Shown piece by piece: positions 5,787 to 49,220 of a DNA stretch of 64,000 bases; the first letter of the stretch is position 1; the number at the start of each line of letters is the position of its first letter. Source of the stretch: an uncultured Ardenticatenia bacterium. Its GTDB lineage: Bacteria; Chloroflexota; Anaerolineae; 4572-78; NAK82. The notes beneath the pieces were generated by a model. That model had not been told where the DNA came from and did no database searches. It saw only the letters and a program-made list of their open reading frames with translations. The stretch covers positions 124,001 through 188,000 of the forward strand of contig CAKZLO010000035.1 of NCBI GenBank assembly GCA_937127125.1. Reading direction: 5' to 3'. The translations under genes and the position numbers were made by a program.

Positions 5787-6686
5787 TCAGACACGCTCTG
5801 CAGTCGCGGTGCCACGCACCAGACCTTGCGGGCGGAAGAGAAGCACCAACAGCACAATGGCAAACACAAAAGCCTGGCGATAGTCCAACAAGGATTGGGG
5901 TAACATCAGCTGCAGCCCAACCGTCAGTGCCCCCAATAGATAACCACCAATCACTGCTCCAGTTAAGCTCTCCATACCTCCGACCACAGCGGCAACAAAG
6001 GCAACCAGAACAGGGGTTGAGCCGACAAAAGGCCCTACGGATCCCAGCCGTCCGATCCAGAACAAGGCAACCACGCCGGCGAGGAAGCCGCTGATTGCAA
6101 AAGCAGTGGCAATCACCTGATTGGCCCGGATACCTACCAAGCGCGTCATCACGAAATCATCCGCCGCAGCACGCAGCGCAATCCCAAGCAATGTGCGCCG
6201 CAGAAACAGGGTCAGCAATCCCAACAAAACCAGGCTGACCACCAAGCTGGCAAGATTACCCTTAGAGATGAGCAAATCGCCCACCTGAAAATTCTCGGTG
6301 AAAAAGGAAGGAGTTGTGACCGCCTTTGCACGCGGCGAGATGAACAGAATGGCCATATTCTGCAACAATGCACTCACAGCAAATGAGGTGATCAGCATCG
6401 TAGTCGCCGAGGCCTGGCGCACTGGTCGAAAAGCCACCCGCTCCAAAAGCAAGCTGGTGAGCACTGCCATACCAATACTGATAACGGCGACAATCAGCCA
6501 CGGAATCGGCCCAGCGCCTAGCATCAGCAGCGTGTAGCCCGCCACCATCACCAACTCGCCGTAAGCGAAATTGACTAGTCGCAGGATGCCGTACACGATC
6601 ACCAGCCCCAATGCCATCAGCGCATACAGCCCCCCCAAGCTGAGAGCATTGATGATGAACTGCAGCACATCGTGGAGCACGTTCAC
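5787..6686 (-). CDS. livH: Branched-chain amino-acid type ABC permease LivH
   Basis: 299-residue LivH permease with about eight membrane segments. It carries YALMALGLVIVYGILRLVNF at the N-terminus, the EAA-like loop RRTLLGIALRAAADD, and GGMESLTGAVIGGYLLG near the end. The GTG start at 6686 overlaps the livF stop as GTGA, with GGGAGG upstream inside livF, so translation is probably coupled. LivM follows after 20 bases. Together they form the channel of the importer. Confidence 0.93.
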   Translation of the reverse strand: MNVLHDVLQFIINALSLGGLYALMALGLVIVYGILRLVNFAYGELVMVAGYTLLMLGAGPIPWLIVAVISIGMAVLTSLLLERVAFRPVRQASATTMLITSFAVSALLQNMAILFISPRAKAVTTPSFFTENFQVGDLLISKGNLASLVVSLVLLGLLTLFLRRTLLGIALRAAADDFVMTRLVGIRANQVIATAFAISGFLAGVVALFWIGRLGSVGPFVGSTPVLVAFVAAVVGGMESLTGAVIGGYLLGALTVGLQLMLPQSLLDYRQAFVFAIVLLVLLFRPQGLVRGTATAERV

Positions 6687-7411
6687 CCGCTCACTTCCCT
6701 CCCACGCACGTCACCAAGGTATGCACCGACAATATCCACCTGCTTGCGCAATTGCTCGGGTACGCCCTCACATTCCACCCTGCCTGTGTTTAACAGGTAC
6801 ACCCGGTCTGCGATGTCCAGTGTGCGCTCTACGTTTTGTTCCACCAGCAAAACAGTGACCCCCGAAGCACGCAACTGGACAATCATCGCAAAGACTTCGT
6901 CTACCAGGATGGGCGACAAACCCAGCGAAGGCTCATCCATCATCAGCAGACGTGGTCGCGACATCAGCGCCCGGGCGATAGCCAGCTGTTGCTGCTCACC
7001 ACCAGAAAGAGTACCACCTGCCTGATGGAATCGCTTGCCCAGAATGGGAAAACGGGTACACATTTCTTCAATATCGCGCTCAACACCTTTTTGATCACGG
7101 CGAATGGTAGCTCCCAAGCGCAAGTTCTCGCCTACTGTCAAGCTGGGAAAGATGCGTCGCCCTTCCGGCACAAGTGCAATTCCACGGCGCAGAATTTCTT
7201 CGGGTGAGAGTCCTAGGAGTGACTGTCCCTCAAAGGTGATTTCGCCGCGAGTGGGTCTCAACACTCCCGCAATAGTGGCCATCAAGGTACTCTTGCCAGC
7301 CCCATTTGCGCCCACGAGCCCCACAAGTTCGCCTGCCTCTACGTGCAGCGACACACCGCGCAATGCAATGATTGCACCATAGCCCGCGTGTATGTTCTCA
7401 ACGTTCAGCAT
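6683..7411 (-). CDS. livF: Branched-chain amino-acid type ABC ATPase LivF
   Basis: 242-residue ABC ATPase of the LivF branch. Walker A is GANGAGKSTL, the signature LSGGEQQQLAIARAL, Walker B LLMMDEPSLGLSP, and the switch region VTVLLVEQNVERTLDIADR ends in the H-loop-less style normal for LivF. It overlaps livG by 7 bases and livH by 4 bases, so the three are tightly coupled. It powers the importer as a heterodimer with LivG. Confidence 0.94.
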   Translation of the reverse strand: MLNVENIHAGYGAIIALRGVSLHVEAGELVGLVGANGAGKSTLMATIAGVLRPTRGEITFEGQSLLGLSPEEILRRGIALVPEGRRIFPSLTVGENLRLGATIRRDQKGVERDIEEMCTRFPILGKRFHQAGGTLSGGEQQQLAIARALMSRPRLLMMDEPSLGLSPILVDEVFAMIVQLRASGVTVLLVEQNVERTLDIADRVYLLNTGRVECEGVPEQLRKQVDIVGAYLGDVRGREVSG

Positions 7412-8154
7412 GGCAGCATCCTGCGACCCGATCCCAGATAGGCAGCGATAACCTCTTTATCGTGGCGAACCTCGTTTGGCGTCCCCTCGCAAATGGTGCG
7501 GCCGTAGTTCAGCACATGGAGACGGTGGCACAGCCGCATAATAAGGCGCATATCATGGTCAACGATTAGCATGCCACAGCCAGTTTCCCGGGGAAGTGGC
7601 GTCAGCATTTCCAGCAAAGTATCGCTCTCTTGTTCGTTCAAACCAGCTGCCGGTTCATCTAAGAAGAGGAAAATCGGCCGAGATGCAAGAGCACGTGCTA
7701 CCTCTATACGCCGTTCCTCTCCGTAGGGCAACGCACCAGCCGGAATCGTGGCCAGATGCGTTGCCCCCACCCGTTCCAGCGCCCAAAGCGCACGCTCACG
7801 TGCCTGGGGTCGAGACAGACCCGCACTCACGGCCGCCACCTCGACATTTTCTAAGACGGTCAATCCGCGGAACAGCTTTATCGTCTGAAAGGTGCGCGCC
7901 AACCCAACGTGGGCAATGCGATGTGGCGGCCAGCCCGTGATGTCTGTGTCACCCACACGAACGCGACCACGCGTTGGTTTGAGAAAACCGGTGATAACGT
8001 TGATCAATGTGGTCTTGCCCGATCCGTTCGGTCCGATCAGGCCCAGAATCTCGCCTCGATGCAAACTAAGCGTGACATCTTCCAACGCCCGCAGGCCGAC
8101 AAAGTCTTTGGTAATCTCCTCGACGTGCAATGTCAGTGCATTGTTCTGAATCAT
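7405..8154 (-). CDS. livG: Branched-chain amino-acid type ABC ATPase LivG
   Basis: 249-residue ABC ATPase. Walker A is GPNGSGKTTLINVITGF, Walker B IFLFLDEPAAGLNEQE, and the signature is the LivG-like variant LPYGEERRIEVARAL. An upstream in-frame extension to 8322 runs through the end of the binding-protein gene and has no family resemblance, so I use ATG 8154, where the sequence becomes MIQNNALTLHVEEITKDF. The AGGTG ribosome site is rather far from this ATG. It is the second gene of the operon, 37 bases after the binding-protein stop. Confidence 0.93.
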   Translation of the reverse strand: MIQNNALTLHVEEITKDFVGLRALEDVTLSLHRGEILGLIGPNGSGKTTLINVITGFLKPTRGRVRVGDTDITGWPPHRIAHVGLARTFQTIKLFRGLTVLENVEVAAVSAGLSRPQARERALWALERVGATHLATIPAGALPYGEERRIEVARALASRPIFLFLDEPAAGLNEQESDTLLEMLTPLPRETGCGMLIVDHDMRLIMRLCHRLHVLNYGRTICEGTPNEVRHDKEVIAAYLGSGRRMLPC

Positions 8155-29860: not shown

Positions 29861-32689
29861 CTAAAGTTTAACCACCCTCACCACCTCGTTCCCCCGGAAA
29901 TCGATCACCTTGACGGCGATGCGCTGATGTTCGCCCCGCTTGAAAGGGAATGACGCAATGTCGCGCATCTGATTAAATGCTTCCGGGTCGATCTGGGCCT
30001 TGAGGGCGCGCTGAAGTTTATCCCACGCGTCGGCGTCCCCAGGGAAGAAAGCCTGACATATGTGAAAGGTATTCCCATCGTAGTCAGTATCCAAGAACCA
30101 GGCAGCAACATCCTTACCACGTGTGGGACGAACCTCCCCCGTCGAGGGATCGTAGATGTCCACACCCTGCAGCTCGACCACGAAGGTGCCATCCTTCTGA
30201 CTGCTCACTCGCACATCGGGCTGGCCGAAGACGGTGAAAATCTGGCTGGCACGGGTGGTTTTGAGCAGGTCGCCCACAAGAACATCCGGGGAAATATTGG
30301 CAAAATGGATCGAAAGCCCCTTTACCGGAGTCTTTTGCACGAAAGCCTGCGCCTCAGCCTCGATGCTAAACCCGGCCAGGATCAGCACCCCATAGGCATT
30401 CAGTTTGGCAGTCTGGATCGCCTCGCTGGCCTGTGTGGCGGTGACAGGTCCGTAGCGCGGCCCGAAGCTGATCGCCACACGCACCGTTTTGCCGTTCTGG
30501 ATGTCTTCCGCTTCGGCATGCAGGTAACCGAGGTTGAGCATTCGCAGGTTGGCGAGCTCCATCTTCTTGCCGTCTGGAAAAAGAATATTGCCCTGCTGCC
30601 TCAGCAGGTTGAGCATGGTGGCCAGATGGTCGCCGCCATAGTCGGCGATGCGTTCCCATGCCCCTTGCTCTTCAAACCGCGGGATGGGCGCCTGTGTCGG
30701 GTCTTCCACCGCTGGCACCGGGATGGCTTCTACAGTGAACGGTCCTGACACACGCACCACACCGCGCTTGATCCGTGGGCGATCGTAGAGCGTTTCCTGG
30801 GGCGCATTGCGCTGAATGCTTTTGTCAATCTCATCACGCTTTCGCCGCTTGAGCTCCCAAAAACGACGCAAGGCCGCCTGCGCCGGCTGCGGCCAGTTGA
30901 AGGCAGGGACAGGTTCGGGCACTTCCTTCAGACACTTCCACCGATGACCGGTGAGACGGTAGATCTTCTCCAGCAGCACTCCGACCTGTTCCTCGGTGGC
31001 AACGGGTGTCTCCCTGTCCTTAAGCTCGTGTAGGCAGCGAAAGGCCTGCTGCGCCTCTTTCGGCCAGACAGGATGAGGTACCTCACACGGTACCTCCCAT
31101 TCTTTCCAATCCGTGCGCAAGGCATCGTTCATCTCGACCAACGCCTGGTCTATATGTGGCTGATAGCGGTTAGCAATCTCGTCAATCTCGGTGTTCTTAG
31201 CGATGCTTTCCAGTGTAATGTGTGGTATGGTCTCGTAGAAGAAGCCGCCGGCCGGACCACGCTCAGCGTCCCACAGTTCATAGTAGTCAAATTTAGCCGT
31301 CATCAGCCGCTGGCGGGCGATCGCCAGCGCCACCCGCGAGGTGTCGCAGGCGATCCAGCGGCGGCCCCACTTTTCGGCGCAATAGGCCGTAGTGCCCGAG
31401 CCGCAGGTGGGATCAAGTACCAGGTCGCCCGGGTCGGTGGTCATCAAGATGCAACGCTCAATGACTTTGGTGTTGGTCTGGACAGCGTAGATCTTTTTGC
31501 GTTCGCCCATAGTGTCATCCCAGATGTTCGTGAGTGTTGAGACATCAAAGTCACTCATGTAGTGAATAAACCTGAGCGTGTCCCCAGATACAATCAATCT
31601 ATCGGCTTGCCTCAGACGCTGAAGCCCAAGAATCGATGTTTTCCAGTGATTATTGGCAGCGGGGTGAAATCTCTTGTTGCAGAACTCGAACTGAAATGTT
31701 CCCCCTTGTGTCTCACCTTGAGATACTAAGCTGGTATCCTGGAACAACTGACATCCGGCCGATCTCAGTTCGGCAACGTCGGTGTCTCTCTCTTTGTCCA
31801 ACCTGTAACGGTCTCCTGTCGGTAACTCAATCCATCTGTAATCCACAAGGCCTCTCTGAGATTGAGCTTTTGGGATAACAAGCGGACGGTACTTCACCTT
31901 CACCTTATTTTCCGCATACCACAATAAATGGTCATTAACTGATGGTATGAGCTGCGAGGCCTGGTAGCCCGTCTTCCTAAATACCACCACCGCCACAAAA
32001 TTCTCCCGGCCGAACACCTCGTCCAGCAGGCAACGCACCAGGTGCAGGTTCTCGTCGTTGATCTGCACGAAAATCGAGCCGCTCTCGCTCAGCAGCTCGC
32101 GCGCCAGTAACAGGCGATCGCGGTAGGCCTTGATCTGTTCGGGCTCGTGGGTCAGATCGTTGTCCTGATCCTTCACGTCGCTGCGGTCAATGCGCGGCTG
32201 AAAGTTGGAGGCGTACCTTATGCCATAGGGCGGGTCGATGTAAATCATTTGCACCTTGCCAGCCATCCCCTCTTTTACCAGCAGCGAGTTCATCACCAGC
32301 AGGCTATCGCCCAGGATCAGCCGGTTGACCCAGCCCACCTCGTGGCGGTAGAATTCGATCTGCTGATCAGCAGGCAAGGGCGTCTCACCAAAGAGGGAGA
32401 GTTGCAGCGGCCCAGAGCGGCGCACTGCATCCAGGATCGCCCGCGTGGAGACGCGTTCGTGGATGTGCAGAGGGACCACATCCACATTAAAAGAAGTGTG
32501 TTCCATCTTACCGGCCCAGACAAGCTGGGGATCGAGATGGGGATCGTACTCGTAGCGGGTCTGCTGGCGCTCGCATACCTCGTAAGTGAGGGCGATGCCG
32601 GCAGGTGGATTGTTTTTGCGGCGCGCCTCTGCGTGGCGAAAGTCCTGTACAACACTGGAAGAAATGGCTTGGTGTCTTCTCTGTGGCAT
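29861..32689 (-). CDS. Mod-like DNA methyltransferase with long C-terminal region
   Basis: 942 residues. The methyltransferase has motif IV first, MIYIDPPYGIRYASNFQ (Asp152-Tyr155), and motif I later, VLDPTCGSGTTAYCAEKWG (about 425), the beta-class order typical of type III Mod and many N6-adenine or N4-cytosine enzymes. The remaining ~450 residues form a long C-terminal region with KRRKRDEIDKSIQRN and a final SFPFKRGEHQRIAVKVID; this part is unlike the short tails of ordinary Mod and may mediate recognition or complex formation. The first gene of the restriction operon, it has GGAG ahead of its ATG. It presumably protects host sites. The exact base and target sequence cannot be read. Confidence 0.88.
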   Translation of the reverse strand: MPQRRHQAISSSVVQDFRHAEARRKNNPPAGIALTYEVCERQQTRYEYDPHLDPQLVWAGKMEHTSFNVDVVPLHIHERVSTRAILDAVRRSGPLQLSLFGETPLPADQQIEFYRHEVGWVNRLILGDSLLVMNSLLVKEGMAGKVQMIYIDPPYGIRYASNFQPRIDRSDVKDQDNDLTHEPEQIKAYRDRLLLARELLSESGSIFVQINDENLHLVRCLLDEVFGRENFVAVVVFRKTGYQASQLIPSVNDHLLWYAENKVKVKYRPLVIPKAQSQRGLVDYRWIELPTGDRYRLDKERDTDVAELRSAGCQLFQDTSLVSQGETQGGTFQFEFCNKRFHPAANNHWKTSILGLQRLRQADRLIVSGDTLRFIHYMSDFDVSTLTNIWDDTMGERKKIYAVQTNTKVIERCILMTTDPGDLVLDPTCGSGTTAYCAEKWGRRWIACDTSRVALAIARQRLMTAKFDYYELWDAERGPAGGFFYETIPHITLESIAKNTEIDEIANRYQPHIDQALVEMNDALRTDWKEWEVPCEVPHPVWPKEAQQAFRCLHELKDRETPVATEEQVGVLLEKIYRLTGHRWKCLKEVPEPVPAFNWPQPAQAALRRFWELKRRKRDEIDKSIQRNAPQETLYDRPRIKRGVVRVSGPFTVEAIPVPAVEDPTQAPIPRFEEQGAWERIADYGGDHLATMLNLLRQQGNILFPDGKKMELANLRMLNLGYLHAEAEDIQNGKTVRVAISFGPRYGPVTATQASEAIQTAKLNAYGVLILAGFSIEAEAQAFVQKTPVKGLSIHFANISPDVLVGDLLKTTRASQIFTVFGQPDVRVSSQKDGTFVVELQGVDIYDPSTGEVRPTRGKDVAAWFLDTDYDGNTFHICQAFFPGDADAWDKLQRALKAQIDPEAFNQMRDIASFPFKRGEHQRIAVKVIDFRGNEVVRVVKL

Positions 32690-34736: not shown

Positions 34737-36467
34737 ATGGCGTTGCGCATTGTACTGGCACAAATAAATGCGACCGTTGGAGATCTGCCGGGTAATCGGG
34801 ACAGAATTGTCGCGCGCATCGAGGAAGCGCGCCGTATGGGGGCCGACATTGCGGTTTTCCCCGAGATGTGCCTGACGGGTTACCCACCCGAGGATTTGCT
34901 GCTCAAGCCAGATTTTATCGAGGCGGCACGGCGCACATTGCACGAGATTGTCCCTGAAAGTCGTGGCCTGACCGTCATCATAGGAACCGCCTACGCGGAC
35001 GGCGATCTCCACAATGCAGCCGCTGTGTTACACGATGGTCGCATCGCTGGGATGTATTACAAGCACTACCTACCCAACTACAGCGTCTTCGACGAAGAAC
35101 GTTACTTCGAGGCAGGGCGCCAACAGTTGATATTCGTGCGGGATGAAACACTTATCGGCGTCAGTGTGTGCGAAGACATATGGTATCCGGATGGCCCGCC
35201 GGAAGCTCAGGCGCTGTATGGAGGCGCCGAGCTGCTAATCAATATCTCGGCTTCCCCTTACTATATGGGACGTGGGCAGGCACGCGAACGCATGTTGCGC
35301 ACACGTGCGGCAGACAACACCGCTTTTCTCGCCTATTGCAATTTGGTGGGTGGTCAGGACGAGCTGGTTTTTGATGGATACAGCCTCATTTGCGGACCGC
35401 AAGGTGAACTAATTGCACGCGGCAAGCAGTTTGCCGAGGACATAATCGCAGCAGACCTGGATATGCGACAGGTATTTCGCTGGCGATTGTATGATCCGCG
35501 GCGTCGCAAGCGTGCGCGCGAGGAATCGCGCGTTTTTGAGCGGGTTGTGCTCAGTCCAACACCAGTGCGGTCGGAACGTGCACCGCTGATGAGTCAGATC
35601 GCACCTTTGTTTGAGCCAGTCGCCGAAGTGTATGAAGCTCTGGTGTTAGGCACCCGCGACTATGTGCTCAAGAACGGTTTTCAGAAAGTTGTACTGGGAC
35701 TATCAGGAGGTGTGGATAGCTCATTGACGGCAGCGATCGCCGCGGATGCGTTGGGGTCGGATAACGTGATCGGTGTAGCTATGCCCACGCGTTACAATTC
35801 GCCGCACAGTCTGGAGGATGCCCAACAGCTAGCACATAATTTTGGCTTTGAATTGCTGACCATCCCGATCGACAACACATTTCAATCTTTCCTGAATATG
35901 CTCGCGCCCGTCTTTGCGGATCTGCCACCGGACGTGACCGAGGAGAACCTGCAGCCAAGGATTCGTGGTACTCTGTTAATGGCTCTTTCCAACAAGTTTG
36001 GCTGGCTGGTGTTGACGACGGGCAATAAGAGTGAGGTAGGGGTAGGATACTCGACCCTGTATGGCGACACGGCAGGCGGCTTTGCCGTCCTCAAAGACGT
36101 GCCCAAGATGATGGTTTACGAGCTCAGCCGCTATCGCAACCGGCTGGCAGGGTACGATATCATCCCCCAACGTGTCTTGGAGAAGGTGCCCTCGGCCGAG
36201 CTGCGGCCTAATCAGAAGGACAGCGACTCGTTGCCCGAATATGCTATTCTGGACCCCATCCTGCACGCCTATGTGGAGGAAAGCTGTGGACCCGGTGAGA
36301 TTGTGGCACGCGGATATGACCCGGCCACGGTGCAGCGCGTCATCCGCATGGTTGACCGCAGCGAGTACAAACGGCGCCAGAGTCCGCCTGGCGTGAAGAT
36401 CACACCGCGCGCTTTTGGCAAAGATTGGCGGCTGCCGATCACGAATCGTTATCGGCCGGAGGTATGA
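34737..36467 (+). CDS. nadE: Glutamine-dependent NAD+ synthetase
   Basis: 576 residues with two domains. The N-terminal nitrilase-fold glutaminase has Glu in VFPEMCLTGYPPED, Lys in YKHYLPNYSVFDEERYF and Cys in SVCEDIWYPDGP as the catalytic triad. The C-terminal synthetase has the PP-loop LGLSGGVDSSLTAAIAAD, then TTGNKSEVGVGYSTLYGD and the closing EYKRRQSPPGVKITPRAFG. It makes NAD+ from nicotinate adenine dinucleotide with ammonia taken from glutamine and passed through a tunnel. GGGAG precedes the ATG. Confidence 0.95.
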   Translation: MALRIVLAQINATVGDLPGNRDRIVARIEEARRMGADIAVFPEMCLTGYPPEDLLLKPDFIEAARRTLHEIVPESRGLTVIIGTAYADGDLHNAAAVLHDGRIAGMYYKHYLPNYSVFDEERYFEAGRQQLIFVRDETLIGVSVCEDIWYPDGPPEAQALYGGAELLINISASPYYMGRGQARERMLRTRAADNTAFLAYCNLVGGQDELVFDGYSLICGPQGELIARGKQFAEDIIAADLDMRQVFRWRLYDPRRRKRAREESRVFERVVLSPTPVRSERAPLMSQIAPLFEPVAEVYEALVLGTRDYVLKNGFQKVVLGLSGGVDSSLTAAIAADALGSDNVIGVAMPTRYNSPHSLEDAQQLAHNFGFELLTIPIDNTFQSFLNMLAPVFADLPPDVTEENLQPRIRGTLLMALSNKFGWLVLTTGNKSEVGVGYSTLYGDTAGGFAVLKDVPKMMVYELSRYRNRLAGYDIIPQRVLEKVPSAELRPNQKDSDSLPEYAILDPILHAYVEESCGPGEIVARGYDPATVQRVIRMVDRSEYKRRQSPPGVKITPRAFGKDWRLPITNRYRPEV

Positions 36468-36516
36468 CTGCAGATGCAGAAACGATCAAGGAGCGGTTAG
36501 CCCGCATCGTGGTAAA

Positions 36517-37611
36517 ATGGCTGGGCAAATTGATCAGCGTGCACCACTGAACACCTTCCTAAAACGCCTGTGGGCCTTCTCGGCGCGATTGGATGTGACA
36601 GCTGGCATTCTCTTTCTCCTTGTGCTTCTGTCCATCGTTGGTTCGTCCATCCCCCAGCTGGCGCCAGAGATATCTACTGACCCGGAACGGTTCACCGCAT
36701 GGGTAGCAGCTTTGCGAGCGAAATATGACGGTTGGGCCGATTTTCTTGTGAACAGCGGCGCCGTTCAGTTTTTCCGAACATGGGTTTTTCTGTTGCCGTG
36801 GGGGTTGCTCTTTTTGTTCACCATCCTGTGCGTGGCTCACCGGTGGCGAGCGATATGGCACAATGTAACGGGAAGCCCAATGCGCTGCACGCCTGCAATA
36901 GCCGATGGGGCGACCTACTCTGCCTCCATCTCCGGCGCGCGTGGCCCTGCGTGGGAAGCGTTGCGACGAGCGCTCGAGCAGGATGGATATCGTGTGCTGA
37001 CAGAGACGAACGAAGCGGGATGGTTCTTGTACGCTGACCGTCACCGATTGGCCCGACTGGCCACACTGGTCACCCATCTAGGAGTGATTGTGTTGCTCGC
37101 CGGTGTCCTTTTGAGCACACAGACGAGCTGGCGTGAGGAACTGATCGTCCCCTTGGACGGATCAACCGTCGTGCGTCAAGTGGGCCTGCACGTCCATGGC
37201 GCAGGGTTCGAAATTCTGCGTTATCCGGATGGCAACGTCGCGTCGTATGAGGCCCTTGTGCGGGTTCAGGAGGCGCAGGCACGCATTCGGGTCAACGAGC
37301 CACTAGTGTACCAGAGTATTGGCTTTCATTTATCAGGATACGTTCAGACGCGAGACCAGACAGCAGTTGTACTCCAAGTGGTTTATGATCCTGGTTACGC
37401 ACTCATCATCATTGCTGGCTTTCTGGTGCTGATCGGGATGATGGTCACTTTTAACATGCCTTTTAGTTGCATCCGGGCATGTCTGACAGAGGATGGAGTG
37501 CTTCACTTAGGAGGTTGGGCTGATCGTCGGGCGTATGGGTTTGCACACGCGTTCGAGTCCTTCGTACAACAGGCCGTTGCCGTGCTCAATACACAGCCGG
37601 ACACAGTATGA
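36517..37611 (+). CDS. resB: Cytochrome c biogenesis protein ResB (Ccs1)
   Basis: About 364 residues of the ResB family. Membrane segments are seen near the N-terminus (GILFLLVLLSIVGSSIPQLAP and WVFLLPWGLLFLFTILCVAHRW), a third at LARLATLVTHLGVIVLLAGV, a large outside domain with VQEAQARIRVNEPLVYQSIGF, and a final segment YALIIIAGFLVLIGMMVTF. With ResC it exports and presents heme for covalent attachment to CXXCH motifs outside the membrane (cytochrome c system II). I use ATG 36517; a short overlapping frame (36464-36550) ends inside it. It is followed by resC after 89 bases and then by a Tat-signal radical SAM gene that itself carries CXXCH. Confidence 0.9.
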   Translation: MAGQIDQRAPLNTFLKRLWAFSARLDVTAGILFLLVLLSIVGSSIPQLAPEISTDPERFTAWVAALRAKYDGWADFLVNSGAVQFFRTWVFLLPWGLLFLFTILCVAHRWRAIWHNVTGSPMRCTPAIADGATYSASISGARGPAWEALRRALEQDGYRVLTETNEAGWFLYADRHRLARLATLVTHLGVIVLLAGVLLSTQTSWREELIVPLDGSTVVRQVGLHVHGAGFEILRYPDGNVASYEALVRVQEAQARIRVNEPLVYQSIGFHLSGYVQTRDQTAVVLQVVYDPGYALIIIAGFLVLIGMMVTFNMPFSCIRACLTEDGVLHLGGWADRRAYGFAHAFESFVQQAVAVLNTQPDTV

Positions 37612-37700: not shown

Positions 37701-38501
37701 ATGTGGATTGCAGCGGCTTACGGGCTGTTATGGCTTGCATTTGCAGGTTACCTGTTTTATCCTTGGCTGAGGAGGTACAGAGGCAGCTGGGGAGCGACGG
37801 GTGCAGCGCTGGGAGCATGGCTCTGCCTCACGACCGGGCTCGTTGAGCGTAGTATTTTGGCAGGCCATTGGCCACTGGCGAATCGCTACGAGTTTGCGCT
37901 CTGTTTCGTCTGGACAATCCTGAGCGTTTATCTTCTGCTCGAGGCCAGCTGGCGAGAACGTGGTTGTGGCGTTTTTGTGATGGCGATGGGGCTCTTTGTA
38001 GCCAGCTATGCTGTCACCCGACCAGAAGCGATGAAAGCGATTGCATCATTGATACCTGCTTTGCGTTCACCGTGGTTGCAGCTCCATGCAGCAACAGCAG
38101 CTATCGCCTATGGTGGCTTTGGAGTGGTGGCCGGACTAGGCTTGGCACGCCTGTTCAGCGCTCGGATGCCCGAGCGGCTGCCCCCTGATGGGGAGCTGGA
38201 ACGCATGATGGAACGTAGTGTGGCGCTTAGCTTCCCATGGTTGACGTTCTCTATCCTCGCTGGTGCTATCTGGGCACAGAATGCTTGGGCGCGCTTTTGG
38301 GGCTGGGATCCCAAGGAGACATGGGCGCTTCTTACATGGCTGTGGTATCTGATGACATTGCACCTATTCCCGTTGCCCCGCTGGCGTGGACAACGTATGG
38401 CAATATTTTTGCTGATCGGTTTTGGGCTGGTCATTTTCACCTTCATCGGGGTGCCCTGGTTAGTGCAACTGGTTCGGTTGGAGAGTTTGCATGGATTTTA
38501 A
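37701..38501 (+). CDS. ccsA: Cytochrome c biogenesis protein CcsA/ResC
   Basis: 266 residues with about eight membrane segments. The heme-handling WWD motif reads NAWARFWGWDPKETWALLTW, and LAGHWPLANRYEFALCFVW is the family's first conserved His-containing loop. Further His residues (LQLHAATAAIAYG, LMTLHLFPLP) are placed as in CcsA proteins that ligate heme. The product works with ResB. The gene ends 11 bases before the radical SAM start. Confidence 0.93.
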   Translation: MWIAAAYGLLWLAFAGYLFYPWLRRYRGSWGATGAALGAWLCLTTGLVERSILAGHWPLANRYEFALCFVWTILSVYLLLEASWRERGCGVFVMAMGLFVASYAVTRPEAMKAIASLIPALRSPWLQLHAATAAIAYGGFGVVAGLGLARLFSARMPERLPPDGELERMMERSVALSFPWLTFSILAGAIWAQNAWARFWGWDPKETWALLTWLWYLMTLHLFPLPRWRGQRMAIFLLIGFGLVIFTFIGVPWLVQLVRLESLHGF

Positions 38502-38512
38502 GGAGGAACCGA

Positions 38513-39817
38513 ATGGAGAAGATATCTCGCCGTCGGTTTCTGGCAGGTGCAGGCGCGTTGATGGCATGTGGTGCCGGAGTGATGGCCGGATTGAGCGGCA
38601 ACCGCTGGTGGGAATGGCAAACTAGTCAGACAAGCGCTCAAACGTTGCCGCCTCAACCGCCCAATCGCTGGTCCACCGAGGCCAGCTACTATGCCTCGTT
38701 TGCCAATGAGGGATCACTGAACTGTACACAGTGTCACAGCGTTGTAGATGAACCTTTACACGTTTCGTATTGTCATATCCCTCACGCCGGCAACTATGTG
38801 CGTTGCAACCTGTGTCCCCATCGTTGCATCATCGCTTCTGGCGAACGGGGCAATTGTCGAGTGCGCGAAAATCGTGACGGACGCCTCTACTCTATGGTTT
38901 ACGGCAATCCGTGCGCAGTGCACGTTGATCCTATCGAGAAGAAACCTTTCTTCCATTTTCTGCCCACGGCAGCTGCTTTTTCAATCGCCACAGCCGGCTG
39001 CAACCTGCGTTGTCTCTATTGCCAGAACTGGAGCATCTCTCAGGTGCCACCTGAGGAGACCGAGAATGTAGACCTGCCGCCGGAGGAAGTAGTGCGTGCC
39101 GCCCAAGCATACAAGGCGCCAGTGATCGCGTACACGTACTCGGAGCCATCAGTATTTTATGAATACGTGCTGGCGACTGCGGAAGCAGGGCGCAAACGTG
39201 GCCTGCGCAGTGTGGTTATCTCTGCCGGCTTCATCAACCCTGAACCGCTACAGCGCATGTGCGAGGTAGTGGATGCTATCAAGATCGACCTGAAAGGGCA
39301 TGATGAGGATTTCTATCGCACTGTGTGTGGCGGTGAACTGCAACCTGTGCTCGAGGCAATTCGCACCATCTTCCGGGCAGGCATTCATCTGGAGATCGTC
39401 AATCTGGTCGTGCCAACGTTGAACGACCGTTTGGATCAGCTGAGATCGCTGGCGCGTTGGGTGGCGGAAGAGCTCAGCCCAGATATTCCTCTGCATTTCT
39501 CGCGCTTCTTCCCGCAGTATAAGCTGGCAAACCTGCCCCCTACCCCAGTTGAGACCCTGACAAAGGCCCGAGAAGCAGCTATGGAGGAGGGGCTGCGTTT
39601 TGTGTACGTTGGCAATGTCCCGGGCGATCCGGGCAACAGCACATACTGCCCCCAGTGTGGGCGGGCCATATTGGTGCGCGAGGGTTTTGCCGTGCTGGAG
39701 TACCATTTGCAAGGCGATCAATGCGAATATTGTGGTGAACGCATCCCCGGCGTATGGTGGGAGCAAAAGCCATTCACGAGACCGGCGCGCGTGCAACCTG
39801 GCGGCTCAGATTACTGA
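38513..39817 (+). CDS. amrS: AmmeMemoRadiSam radical SAM protein with Tat signal and CXXCH
   Basis: 434 residues. AGGAGG precedes ATG 38513. The N-terminus KISRRRFLAGAGALMACGAG is a twin-arginine signal, so the folded protein should be exported. Residues 71-75 read CTQCH, a c-type heme motif, with more Cys/His at 87, 88 and 91 before the normal family start RCNLCPHRCIIASGERGNC (98-116). The radical SAM cluster motif is Cys163, Cys167, Cys170 (GCNLRCLYCQNWSIS). A C-terminal CPQCG/CEYCG pair (about residues 382-385 and 405-408) makes a zinc-ribbon-like end. The known family is cytoplasmic in layout. Its reaction is unknown; it co-occurs with MEMO and AMMECR1 proteins, as here. A zinc site instead of heme is possible for CTQCH. 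Confidence 0.9.
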   Translation: MEKISRRRFLAGAGALMACGAGVMAGLSGNRWWEWQTSQTSAQTLPPQPPNRWSTEASYYASFANEGSLNCTQCHSVVDEPLHVSYCHIPHAGNYVRCNLCPHRCIIASGERGNCRVRENRDGRLYSMVYGNPCAVHVDPIEKKPFFHFLPTAAAFSIATAGCNLRCLYCQNWSISQVPPEETENVDLPPEEVVRAAQAYKAPVIAYTYSEPSVFYEYVLATAEAGRKRGLRSVVISAGFINPEPLQRMCEVVDAIKIDLKGHDEDFYRTVCGGELQPVLEAIRTIFRAGIHLEIVNLVVPTLNDRLDQLRSLARWVAEELSPDIPLHFSRFFPQYKLANLPPTPVETLTKAREAAMEEGLRFVYVGNVPGDPGNSTYCPQCGRAILVREGFAVLEYHLQGDQCEYCGERIPGVWWEQKPFTRPARVQPGGSDY

Positions 39818-39887: not shown

Positions 39888-41486
39888 ATGACCCACATTT
39901 CAACACAAGCAGCGTTCATATTCTGTCTTATCCTCATTTGTTTTGCGCTGCTGTTGTTAAGCGCTTGTTCGGCTGCGTCATCCCTGCCTGTGGCAGCGCT
40001 TTCCTCCGGGGAGCCAAAGAAGCAGATCTCTCCTGAGATGCCTCCTCCTGCCTCGCCCACTGCCTCTCTTCCCGCTGATAAGGTACGACCTGCCGCATTT
40101 GCTGGCAGCTGGTACCCTGGTGATGCTGAGACACTGCGCCAAACAGTGGACGATCTCTTGAATGGGGCGAGTCTGTATATCGGGCCAGCTGATGGAACGC
40201 CATTCGGGCTGATCGTGCCCCATGCTGGTTACGTTTACTCGGGTGCAGTCGCAGCAGCCGGATTCAAGCAGCTGGAAGGTCAAGCAATCGACACAGCAGT
40301 GATCATCTCCGCTGACCATCAGGAGCCACTCTCACAGCCCATTTCAGTGTATGCCGAAGGTGGATTCGCTACGCCACTGGGTGTAATACCAGTGGATGTT
40401 GATCTGGCCCACGCTCTAATCCGTGCCGAGCCACGAGTTAAAGCAGACACACGCGCGCACGCCCGAGAGCATGTGATCGAAATCGAGCTACCCTTCCTAC
40501 AACGTGTGTGTCCCCAATGCAAAATTTTGCCGCTTCTGATTGGCAGCGAGGATAATGAGACGATCGATGCCTTAACCAAGGCCCTGCTTAAGGTACTGCC
40601 AGAGCGACGCGCCGTGGTGATCGCTTCCTCAGATCTATCGCACTATCCCCCCGCATTAGAGGCGCGCGAAGTGGATGCAACGACCTTGGATGCAATTCTG
40701 ACTGGCAACCCGACCCGTGTGCGTGAGACCATTGCACAATCGATGCGCCATGGTTATACCAACCTTTTCACCTGTGCCTGCGGTGAGGCAGCCATTTTGG
40801 TGACGATGCAGGTGGCACAGGGACTGGGTGCTGACAACATCGCATTGTTGCGCTACGCCAATTCTGCTGACTCGCCAGTCGGCCAAGCCGACCAGGTAGT
40901 AGGTTATGGTGCTGTGCTATTCTGGCGTCATCGCCCTGCAGACCTGACCTCTGCCCGCCGTCAAGAGCTGCTAAATCTGGCACGGACAAGCATTCGTGCA
41001 TATCTGGCGAGTGGACAGGTACCAAGCTATCAGACTACGGATGCAGAGCTATTACGGCAGCTAGGAGCTTTTGTGACTCTCAGGAAGGAAGGTGAGCTGC
41101 GCGGCTGCATCGGTCATATTCAGGGAGACAGACCCCTGTGGCAAACTGTTCAGAGCATGGCGGTCGCCGCCGCTACCACCGATCCACGCTTTCCGCCGCT
41201 CACCCTTGAAGAGCTAGATCAGGTGAAGATCGAAATCTCGGTGCTCTCTCCTCTGCACCGCCTGGACGAAGTGAATCACATCCAAATAGGGAGCCACGGA
41301 TTAGTGCTCGACTATCACGGCCAGCAAGGGGTTTTCTTGCCGCAAGTGCCTGTGGAACAGAGCTGGAACCGCCTGGAGTATCTAGACAACCTGTGTCTAA
41401 AAGCTGGGCTCTCGCCAGGCTGCTGGCGTGATGCGGCTGCGAAGCTATACACTTTTACTGCAGTGGTCTTCGGTGAGGAAAGATAG
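39888..41486 (+). CDS. MEMO-AMMECR1 fusion lipoprotein (AmmeMemoRadiSam A+B)
   Basis: 532 residues. A lipoprotein signal ends at LLSAC (Cys27), then a Pro/Ser-rich linker. The MEMO domain (about 66-335) keeps the likely metal ligands: His112 in VPHAGYVYSG, His144 in SADHQEP, and Cys in CACGEAAIL; SSDLSHYP is also present. The AMMECR1 domain (about 345-530) has the hallmark LRGCIGHIQGDRPLWQTV. These are usually two separate proteins; here they are one, anchored outside the membrane. The gene is 70 bases downstream of the radical SAM gene, so the three-part system is complete. Function is unknown; MEMO proteins are proposed metal-dependent redox enzymes. Confidence 0.92.
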   Translation: MTHISTQAAFIFCLILICFALLLLSACSAASSLPVAALSSGEPKKQISPEMPPPASPTASLPADKVRPAAFAGSWYPGDAETLRQTVDDLLNGASLYIGPADGTPFGLIVPHAGYVYSGAVAAAGFKQLEGQAIDTAVIISADHQEPLSQPISVYAEGGFATPLGVIPVDVDLAHALIRAEPRVKADTRAHAREHVIEIELPFLQRVCPQCKILPLLIGSEDNETIDALTKALLKVLPERRAVVIASSDLSHYPPALEAREVDATTLDAILTGNPTRVRETIAQSMRHGYTNLFTCACGEAAILVTMQVAQGLGADNIALLRYANSADSPVGQADQVVGYGAVLFWRHRPADLTSARRQELLNLARTSIRAYLASGQVPSYQTTDAELLRQLGAFVTLRKEGELRGCIGHIQGDRPLWQTVQSMAVAAATTDPRFPPLTLEELDQVKIEISVLSPLHRLDEVNHIQIGSHGLVLDYHGQQGVFLPQVPVEQSWNRLEYLDNLCLKAGLSPGCWRDAAAKLYTFTAVVFGEER

Positions 41487-46564: not shown

Positions 46565-48433
46565 TCACCGGCTGGGGAATAACGTCGACTTTGCTGTGAC
46601 CTCAACGATGACCCCTCCAACTGGCGACCCCGATTCTGCAACTGGAAGGGTTTGGAACCATATATCATCTATGTACAGATTGCTGATGCCTGACGAATCG
46701 GTCTCGACACGCAATTGGAGCTCAGCCGTTCTTCCACGGTAAGCACTGAGATCGACTATGCGTTGAACCCATCCGCCTGTGTTGCGTGTGGCGCACAGGT
46801 AGTATGATTCGATTACTCTCCCATCCACAATGAGGCTGCTCCGATCAGCGCCACACGTATCAGCGGAATTGATCCAGTACCAGTACGTCAGCTGCGGACG
46901 GTCTACGGGCACCGTAACCTCTTGCTGAATGTAGGACACCTCGTCATTATCACCGCCCAGCCATACTGCCCAGCTGCCATTGTGTGGCGCCACGGTGAGG
47001 TGTGATCGATCCAGTACTATCCGCCATCCTTGCTGGGAGAACTCGGACCAAGCCGTTGGACCATCCTCAAACCCTCCGTTAGCTGGAACGGTGAGGGCAG
47101 GCGGCTGAGGCTGTGGTTCTGGCTGAGGCGGCTGGGCACCACCATAACGTGCTACAAATGGTAGGAAGATCTTCTTTGAATCATCAGCCTGGGAACTATC
47201 CGTCGTACCCTGCCCATACTCAATATAGCTGGCATCTTCACCTACCAGTGAGACACCATACTTGATGCGCATCATGCCATTTTCGCCCCAACGCATCCCC
47301 CAGGAATTGCGCAAATACCAGACGCCTTGACTGTCGTCCCAGCCGACCAGCACAACGGCATGGTTGGTACCATAGGGACATTGGTTCCTTTCATCCGTCT
47401 GGAAGATGCCACCTGTGTAGTTGGCGAATGCATTGCCCACGCACACTCCCGCCGTCACTGGTCCGTGATTGTAAATAGCCTGTTTGAGCGCCAATACGGA
47501 CGGCATGCCGTACCCCGCCACTAACCCCCATGAGAAGATCCTCTCATGGTGCGGATGCGGGGCACCACAAGCTATCTTCTGCGCACGATAGGGAAAATCT
47601 TGCTCATAAACAGCACCAGCTTCCGTCTCACCTGGTGGTATTTCGTTGTAATGATAGTCGTGCGCCCAGAAACCGCCGGTACATCCCCAACCTCGAGTGT
47701 TACAGGATAGTAAATATTGCTCCGAAAGATCACGTTCAACACCATCGTGGATCTTGATGGCTGCCTCAAGCACTCCTGTGGTGGCAAAAGCCCAACAACT
47801 CCCACATGGGCCTTGGTCCTTGATAGGTGTACATTTACCTTGCTCGCACCAATTGAAGTGGGTCGGGAGGCCCAACGCTGTTACGTCGGCAACTGCTATT
47901 TCAACCGTTGGTGTTGGAGAGGGTTGAGGGGGAGGGGTAGGAAAGTTTGCACCTGTAAAGGGACCAACCGTCCGGACAACAACTGAGAAGGTACTCAACG
48001 GTGATGCTGTACTCTCCCACGGACGACGCAAGGCCAGCGCCAGCTCTGTCTCGCCCTCAGCTATGGCAGCAAAGCGCAATACTTGCCGAGCGGAGCTGCC
48101 CGGCACTTCTGAGAATACCTCGAACTCTGGCATGCCATCTTGTTTTTGTACAATGAGCGAGAGATCAGCACGCACCACCTCCCACAAATAGCCGGTTGAC
48201 GGGTTGGCTGGCAGCCGAACCACCAACAGTGTATCCTCATCGAGGATTACCTCACTACCATTGTCAGTGATGGTCAGAACGATTTCATTGCTTGGCGCGC
48301 TTCGTGCCGGGGAAACAGTTACGACACTATACACTGCCAGAGGCACAGCTAATAGGACAAACACCAGCCACAGAGAAGCCCAGCTATGCCTCTGATACCA
48401 TTCCCACCTTGCCACTTTCCAGGCCCCCTCCAT
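46565..48433 (-). CDS. Papain-family protease with a chagasin-type inhibitor domain
   Basis: About 622 residues from ATG 48433 (GAGGGG site just upstream; a longer start up to 48610 is possible). One N-terminal membrane segment or signal (SLWLVFVLLAVPLAVYS, about 20-36) is followed by an I42 chagasin-like domain: NPSTGYLW (77-84) and RRPW (136-139), the two inhibitor loops that normally plug papain active sites. A Pro/Thr linker leads to the C1A protease: Gln207, Cys213 in CGSCWAF, His358 in TNHAVVLVGW, Asn376 in RNSWG, with SCNTRGWGCTGG. No I29 propeptide is present. A C-terminal beta-sandwich (NGGFEDGP to YIDDIWFQT) could bind carbohydrate or protein. It is exported and possibly self-inhibited. 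Confidence 0.9.
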   Translation of the reverse strand: MEGAWKVARWEWYQRHSWASLWLVFVLLAVPLAVYSVVTVSPARSAPSNEIVLTITDNGSEVILDEDTLLVVRLPANPSTGYLWEVVRADLSLIVQKQDGMPEFEVFSEVPGSSARQVLRFAAIAEGETELALALRRPWESTASPLSTFSVVVRTVGPFTGANFPTPPPQPSPTPTVEIAVADVTALGLPTHFNWCEQGKCTPIKDQGPCGSCWAFATTGVLEAAIKIHDGVERDLSEQYLLSCNTRGWGCTGGFWAHDYHYNEIPPGETEAGAVYEQDFPYRAQKIACGAPHPHHERIFSWGLVAGYGMPSVLALKQAIYNHGPVTAGVCVGNAFANYTGGIFQTDERNQCPYGTNHAVVLVGWDDSQGVWYLRNSWGMRWGENGMMRIKYGVSLVGEDASYIEYGQGTTDSSQADDSKKIFLPFVARYGGAQPPQPEPQPQPPALTVPANGGFEDGPTAWSEFSQQGWRIVLDRSHLTVAPHNGSWAVWLGGDNDEVSYIQQEVTVPVDRPQLTYWYWINSADTCGADRSSLIVDGRVIESYYLCATRNTGGWVQRIVDLSAYRGRTAELQLRVETDSSGISNLYIDDIWFQTLPVAESGSPVGGVIVEVTAKSTLFPSR

Positions 48434-49220
48434 AATCCCCTCAACTACATTCAGCATAACAGGGGGGTGAGCAGGTCTCAATGGGAATCGTGTCATAGGA
48501 ATCCGGTACCATATGGGCAAGGTGCACTCCACGGGCCCGAAGTAGGAAGGAAAGGGCATAATTAGAGGGGATCCAGTTGGGTCATGATTAGAGCAAGTGT
48601 TCAGAGACAATCAGGGAACTGCTGCTCAGCAATTGGTCGAAAGCTCAACACAGTCAATCGCTTGTTCCCTGCACTGAGGGATGTCCAAGAGCCAACCCTT
48701 ACAGGCATCCACGGCGCAAGTACACTGAGGAAACCAATAGGTCTATCGGAACTTACATGGTTGGATAGATATAGGCTATCATAGAGGGCGGAAATCAAAC
48801 GAAATGCAACAAGTATGGCAACCTCCCAGCTCATAACTATTTGCCAGGAAGGCGTACCGCAGCATAGGGGCAACACACGCACATCATAGCGTGGAAGAGA
48901 AGGCGATTGACACACAGCACGCAACGGGCCGTTCTGCCCTTCGATCGATTTGAAGCCAACAGGAAGGGTTGTGATCGGAAGCGTAAGTTATTGCATAATA
49001 GCCCGCGTGAAACATGACACACATCTGCCGGATCGAGTTGACAAGCCACCACTGGTTGAGGCATCACTGGCAGAAGCCGTCGGGTGCCCACTTATTAGCG
49101 CTATCACTGATGAAGAGCGAGCACTATTCTCGTGCAACGACTAGCTCGAGAGCAAAGTGAACAGCAGACCCATGGAATGGTAATGTGCGGGGATCATTCT
49201 CGTCATCAGAGGGATCCAGC
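48434..49220. other. Gene-free stretch
   Basis: About 790 bases. Frames here lack ribosome sites and family resemblance; the longer N-terminal extension of the protease gene (to 48610) is the only possible coding content. No repeat or RNA gene was recognised. Confidence 0.3.

Follow-up and report, generated by a model that had tools for sequence, protein, structure and literature searches.

A Tat-type AmmeMemoRadiSam radical SAM protein with a probable heme c attachment site, encoded beside resB and ccsA in Chloroflexota

RESULTS

The locus and its genes

The window, a stretch of 64,000 nucleotides from an uncultured Ardenticatenia bacterium, contains a run of four genes on the forward strand: resB, ccsA, a radical SAM gene and a gene in which Memo and AMMECR1 are fused. 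The first two encode the subunits of a System II heme ligase. The features on which our argument depends are these.

36415..37611 (likely start ATG near 36517), + strand: resB, CcsB-type subunit of the System II heme ligase; Pfam ResB (PF05140), 7.6e-42, 144 bits
37701..38501, + strand: ccsA, heme-handling WWD subunit of the System II heme ligase; TIGR03144, 3.2e-53; Cytochrom_C_asm, 5.4e-38
38502..38506, + strand: GGAGG, a Shine-Dalgarno-like sequence before the radical SAM gene, read from the sequence
38513..39817, + strand: Tat-type AmmeMemoRadiSam radical SAM enzyme with a CXXCH insert, 434 aa; TIGR04337, 2.8e-107, with translation and family-level comparison
38525..38542, + strand: twin-arginine motif SRRRFL, residues 5-10; R6/R7 invariant in 26/26, TatC in the genome
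38723..38737, + strand: CTQCH, residues 71-75, candidate heme c attachment site; C71/C74/H75 invariant in 26/26 insert carriers
38771..38785, + strand: C87-H88-I-P-H91, second invariant Cys/His group (26/26), candidate distal heme ligands or alternative metal ligands
38804..38857, + strand: family N-terminal Cys cluster C98/C101/C105/C115 (CX2CX3CX9C); at least 90% conserved in the 79-member alignment
38999..39022, + strand: radical SAM CX3CX2C motif C163/C167/C170 (CNLRCLYC); invariant in 79/79, Pfam Radical_SAM 8.8e-21
39888..41486, + strand: AmmeMemoRadiSam proteins B (Memo) and A (AMMECR1), fused, with a lipoprotein-type signal (LSAC); TIGR04336, 1.5e-70; TIGR04335, 2.8e-55; N-terminus and lipobox

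The radical SAM protein scores 358.6 bits against TIGR04337, where the curated NCBIfam cut-off is 220, and the match covers residues 93-418. In this score, in its CX3CX2C motif and Cys cluster, and in the adjacent A (TIGR04335, AMMECR1) and B (TIGR04336, Memo) proteins it resembles the AmmeMemoRadiSam family. It differs in four respects: an insert of about 25 residues containing CXXCH and CHxxH, a Tat signal, export of the A-B fusion, and the presence of resB and ccsA in the gene run. The ccsA product scores 181 bits against TIGR03144, slightly below the cut-off of 187.6, and 131 bits against Pfam Cytochrom_C_asm.

A preliminary description of this DNA had placed a twin-arginine signal at residues 5-10 and CTQCH at residues 71-75, ahead of the family Cys cluster. 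It had also described the radical SAM motif as intact and resB and ccsA as lying directly upstream, 11 bases separating ccsA from the gene. Translation and coordinates bear out each of these readings. Residues 5-10 are S5-R6-R7-R8-F9-L10, with a hydrophobic stretch behind the arginines and a helix predicted by AlphaFold2 at residues 6-27; the cysteines at 163, 167 and 170 lie in CNLRCLYC. ccsA ends at 38501 and the radical SAM ATG is at 38513, with the GGAGG inside the gap. Retention of the protein in the cytoplasm seems unlikely, given the invariant arginine pair, the TatC encoded in the genome and the lipoprotein signal of the partner.

The same genome encodes two further AmmeMemoRadiSam radical SAM paralogs, one of Tat type without CXXCH and one without a signal (L002, G000:C34:308460-309494; L003, G000:C11:9854-10864). 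Elsewhere in the window, two reverse-strand translations read as a secreted papain-like cysteine protease with a C-terminal extension (46565-48610) and a large site-specific DNA methyltransferase-like protein (29861-32689).

Conservation of the CXXCH insert

Is the CXXCH motif a family feature or a peculiarity of one genome? We gathered relatives by whole-genome search and by scanning contigs of GTDB genomes. About 30 distinct Chloroflexota sequences carry the same gene. In all 26 aligned carriers, which come from many metagenome-assembled genomes, eight residues are invariant: R6, R7, C71, C74, H75, C87, H88 and H91. The loop between CXXCH and the C87-H88-H91 group varies in length. The insert lies between the family EAxYY motif and the Cys cluster, and it is missing from the 52 other aligned family members with a readable N-terminus; L063, which lacks its N-terminus, was excluded from the counts of carriers and non-carriers.

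The preliminary description had wondered whether insert and Tat signal occur together across Chloroflexota, and had seen the idea as endangered if CXXCH were confined to this genome. The arginine pair accompanies the insert in 26 of 26 carriers, and confinement to one genome is false. Judged by its invariance across so many sequences, CXXCH is not a product of chance or a one-genome accident. By a simple RR-motif test, 23 of the 52 members without the insert also have the arginine pair, which gives the Tat signal a wider distribution than the insert. The variant is uncommon in Chloroflexota: of 400 genomes in an evenly drawn sample, only 3, the window's own among them, gave a match that extends over the insert.

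When the insert was left out of the alignment for the tree, the 26 carriers fell into one Chloroflexota clade of 30 rows (support 100/99). The remaining members of this clade are L062 and L065, which are nested within it with moderate support, L092 and the fragment L063. The simplest reading of the tree would be a single gain of the insert in the clade, loss in L062/L065, and either loss in L092 or gain after L092 had split off.

Structure of the insert

AlphaFold2, run with 79 sequences, gave a confident core (mean pLDDT 87.9) whose closest solved fold is pyruvate formate-lyase activating enzyme (PDB 3cb8, 3c8f; Foldseek 3.3e-14, TMt 0.80). That enzyme differs from ours in being cytoplasmic and in lacking a heme, a Tat signal and the N-terminal insert; identity is 18%. 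The insert itself was poorly resolved except for a helical turn at the CXXC. In two models pLDDT at residues 71-90 was about 45-54 (block means 52 for 71-80 and 45 for 81-90), and an alignment of carriers only made it no better. This result fits a segment that folds with its cofactor and lends no support to a preformed zinc site, though it is proof of neither.

Searches of Pfam and the PDB with the insert alone returned nothing significant, and no cytochrome c domain family scored above its cut-off. Matches below the cut-off fell mostly among multiheme cytochromes: Paired_CXXCH_1, Cytochrome_C7 and Cytochrom_c3_2. The insert thus bears a weak resemblance to the doubled CXXCH, cytochrome c7 and c3 families (PF09699, PF14522, PF14537). 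Unlike them it has a single CXXCH, the second group being a CH without the first Cys, and it sits inside an enzyme.

Could the invariant residues bind a metal other than heme iron? C71, C74 and C87, with H91 or H88, might instead hold structural zinc or an iron-sulfur cluster, and no heme. One heme needs fewer ligands than the three Cys and three His that are invariant here, the C-termini of the family contain other CxxC pairs, and the insert stays below the cut-offs of the c-type cytochrome families. Against this, AlphaFold2 usually models zinc sites well and leaves this segment unfolded; what weak matches the insert does find point mostly to multiheme cytochromes. A site of this kind would also leave unexplained both the invariant H75 and the presence next door of a System II pair in a System I genome (see below). 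We regard the metal site as improbable, and a c-type heme on the radical SAM protein as likely from the sequence comparisons.

Linkage of the insert to resB and ccsA

In 14 of the 23 carriers with at least 2.5 kb of upstream sequence, resB and ccsA lay directly upstream, vs 0 of 32 non-carriers (Fisher p 1.9e-7, which is not an independent-sample probability, the sequences being related). Two further carriers with shorter flanks have the pair in the same place. The nested L062 and L065, which lack the insert, have no adjacent resB or ccsA, and the genome with the L062 copy, 79% complete, gave no ResB or Cytochrom_C_asm match at all.

About nine carriers do not have the adjacent pair: L041, L046-L050 (a Thermoflexus-type group), L054, L060 (ccsA only) and L064. 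Every such genome searched has ResB-type and Cytochrom_C_asm-type matches elsewhere, weakly so for L060; the ResB-type match is weak in the genomes of both L053 and L060. The idea that these carriers keep resB and ccsA beside a split Memo locus was unsupported in the regions checked.

A System II pair in a System I genome

Cytochrome and biogenesis inventories of the window's genome were made by family searches. Contig C3 holds a complete System I operon: ccmE, ccmF, ccmH, ccmG, ccmA, ccmB and ccmC. The only ResB in the genome is the copy beside the radical SAM gene. Its three Cytochrom_C_asm proteins are CcmF, CcmC and this CcsA, so that the only CcsB/A-type pair lies here. Near-relatives show the same arrangement of family matches. 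Because a complete System I exists elsewhere and the only resB/ccsA pair stands at this locus, the pair is likely to be a dedicated heme ligase for the radical SAM protein.

A pair serving unrelated cytochromes, its position incidental and CXXCH put to some other use, is also conceivable. The window's genome does encode other cytochrome c domains (PF13442 matches), and some CXXCH carriers keep resB and ccsA elsewhere in the genome. But System I is available for those other cytochromes, the linkage recurs across the clade, and the neighborhoods of the carriers contain no other conserved CXXCH protein. We consider an incidental pair very improbable.

Are the linked proteins equipped to act as a ligase? 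The linked CcsA proteins conserve W191, W196, W200 and W202 together with H129 and H221, and the linked ResB proteins conserve H221; heme-handling roles have been described for the tryptophans and histidines of CcsA and ResB (PMC10663686). A C-terminal His, H264, is present in the CcsA of the window and in most linked copies. It is absent from the linked CcsA of L056, L057, L059 and L060, where SLHGF is replaced by VLRVY, PYVF or TLYIF, although characterised CcsBA reportedly cannot do without it (PMC10663686). With its WWD-type tryptophans and conserved histidines, the ResB-CcsA pair resembles System II CcsBA/ResBC, from which it differs in setting: it stands alone next to a radical SAM gene, and System I is encoded elsewhere in the genome, whereas System II usually serves cytochromes in general. 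In vitro, purified CcsBA depends on the two thiols and the His of CXXCH, while the helix that flanks the motif is dispensable (PMC8112865). A short and flexible insert can therefore serve as its substrate.

Redox modules elsewhere in the family

Outside the Chloroflexota clade, membrane electron carriers with flavin and 4Fe-4S domains occupy the equivalent position. In 11 Omnitrophota and Elusimicrobiota loci an FMN-binding-domain gene either lies directly upstream of the radical SAM gene (10 loci: L068, at 6621-7811, L072, L081, L082, L089, L099, L103, L110, L112 and L116) or is fused to it (L083, 2399-3985). These FMN_bind proteins, which are NosR/RnfG/NapH-like, usually also have NapH-type Fer4_5 and Fer4 domains. 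At L078, a locus from Woesearchaeota, the same position is taken by a membrane protein with Fer4_5. None of the CXXCH carriers shares this arrangement. The modules thus stand next to the radical SAM gene, or are fused to it, at other AmmeMemoRadiSam loci. They differ from the heme insert in being flavin and 4Fe-4S modules rather than heme c, and in that most of the radical SAM proteins they accompany have no signal peptide. The Omnitrophota proteins, most of which lack one, may thus be cytoplasmic and receive electrons from the cytoplasmic side. Taken together, these gene arrangements suggest that coupling to a membrane or external electron carrier is common among AmmeMemoRadiSam enzymes, and that redox modules are exchanged within the family. 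Heme c may be the Chloroflexota answer to this coupling.

A c-type heme could be present and yet be something other than an inlet to the cluster. It might take up electrons released by an oxidative reaction, sense oxygen, sulfide or redox state, or serve for docking. Whatever speaks for heme attachment speaks equally for this reading and for ours. The 23 of 52 members that are Tat-type and lack CXXCH must get their electrons otherwise, so the heme is not required for the chemistry of the family. The potential of a typical heme c lies above that of a radical SAM cluster and is usually too high to reduce it. A supply of electrons, rather than sensing, is what the flavin and 4Fe-4S modules found at the equivalent place in other operons, and in one case fused, fit better. 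We judge a heme in one of these other roles rather unlikely, and an electron-inlet role plausible by analogy with those modules.

Two further observations concern other members of the family. In several phyla, AmmeMemoRadiSam radical SAM genes, some for exported proteins and some not, have as neighbors membrane proteins with a Spermine_synth domain. Pfam confirms the domain in L002 (15-1481, contig C34 of the window's genome) and L068 (9091-11238), and similar-looking ORFs occur in L089, L094, L101, L103, L110 and L116; these neighbors are possibly linked to SAM-type metabolites. Seven proteins from WOR-3 and Latescibacterota (L087, L091, L093, L095, L104, L107 and L113) have an apparent Sec-type rather than Tat signal, which is odd for an Fe-S enzyme.

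DISCUSSION

How might such a protein be made and used? In the model that we favor, the radical SAM enzyme would take up its iron-sulfur clusters and fold while still in the cytoplasm, and then be exported by Tat, as its invariant twin-arginine signal implies. Outside, the ResB-CcsA encoded upstream would attach heme to C71 and C74 of the flexible N-terminal insert. H75 would be the proximal iron ligand, and C87, H88 or H91 the likely distal one. Placed directly before the family Cys cluster, the heme could act as a built-in redox relay. Most likely it would let electrons in to the radical SAM [4Fe-4S] cluster and so reduce it outside the cytoplasm; this is the weakest step of the model. Gene order and the association within the family suggest that the substrate partner is the exported Memo-AMMECR1 lipoprotein. 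As a whole, we put this explanation at slightly better than even, with a probability of roughly 0.55.

The preliminary description had proposed an exported radical SAM protein whose own heme could bring electrons to its cluster. The first part is probable. That the neighboring System II would attach heme covalently is well supported by comparative genomics: by sequence conservation, by gene order, by the lone ResB/CcsA pair in a genome with System I, and by the lack of an adjacent pair where the insert has been lost. The delivery of electrons, on the other hand, is something we infer.

Several observations weigh against the favored model. With C87 invariant, the insert could hold a Cys3His metal site. 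For this reason, and because the model of the insert is of low confidence, the zinc site at C71/C74/C87 that the preliminary description had listed as fatal to its idea keeps some probability. Some nine carriers are without the adjacent pair, and four linked CcsA proteins are without the C-terminal His. Tat exports folded proteins, whereas the segments on which System II works are unfolded. The model does not explain how SAM would be supplied outside the cytoplasm, and the potential of a typical heme c stands in the way of cluster reduction. On this last point, c hemes with Cys/His ligation in other proteins, for example in thiosulfate dehydrogenase (PMC9562282), have strongly lowered potentials. 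More speculatively, then, C87 as a ligand would ease the energetic objection. The fuller picture would be of a radical SAM enzyme working outside the cytoplasm and powered through its own heme c, perhaps His/Cys-ligated and of low potential, with a dedicated System II ligase beside a general System I, as one instance of a wider habit in the family of coupling to electron modules. We offer this picture tentatively, at somewhat less than even odds.

Radical SAM enzymes are regarded as cytoplasmic and as fed by flavodoxin or ferredoxin. A search of open papers found none that describes a c-type heme or CXXCH belonging to a radical SAM enzyme, and no precedent for an exported one; the AmmeMemoRadiSam family is almost unmentioned there.

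If the favored model is true, the existence of a conserved and exported radical SAM enzyme equipped with a heme c would mean that radical chemistry is possible outside the membrane, and there would be a new route by which electrons reach or leave a radical SAM enzyme outside the cell membrane. Our findings further suggest that a cell possessing System I could still reserve a System II ligase for a single client. For the AmmeMemoRadiSam system, which is uncharacterised and counts MEMO1 and AMMECR1 among its human relatives, the model would provide a concrete redox handle.
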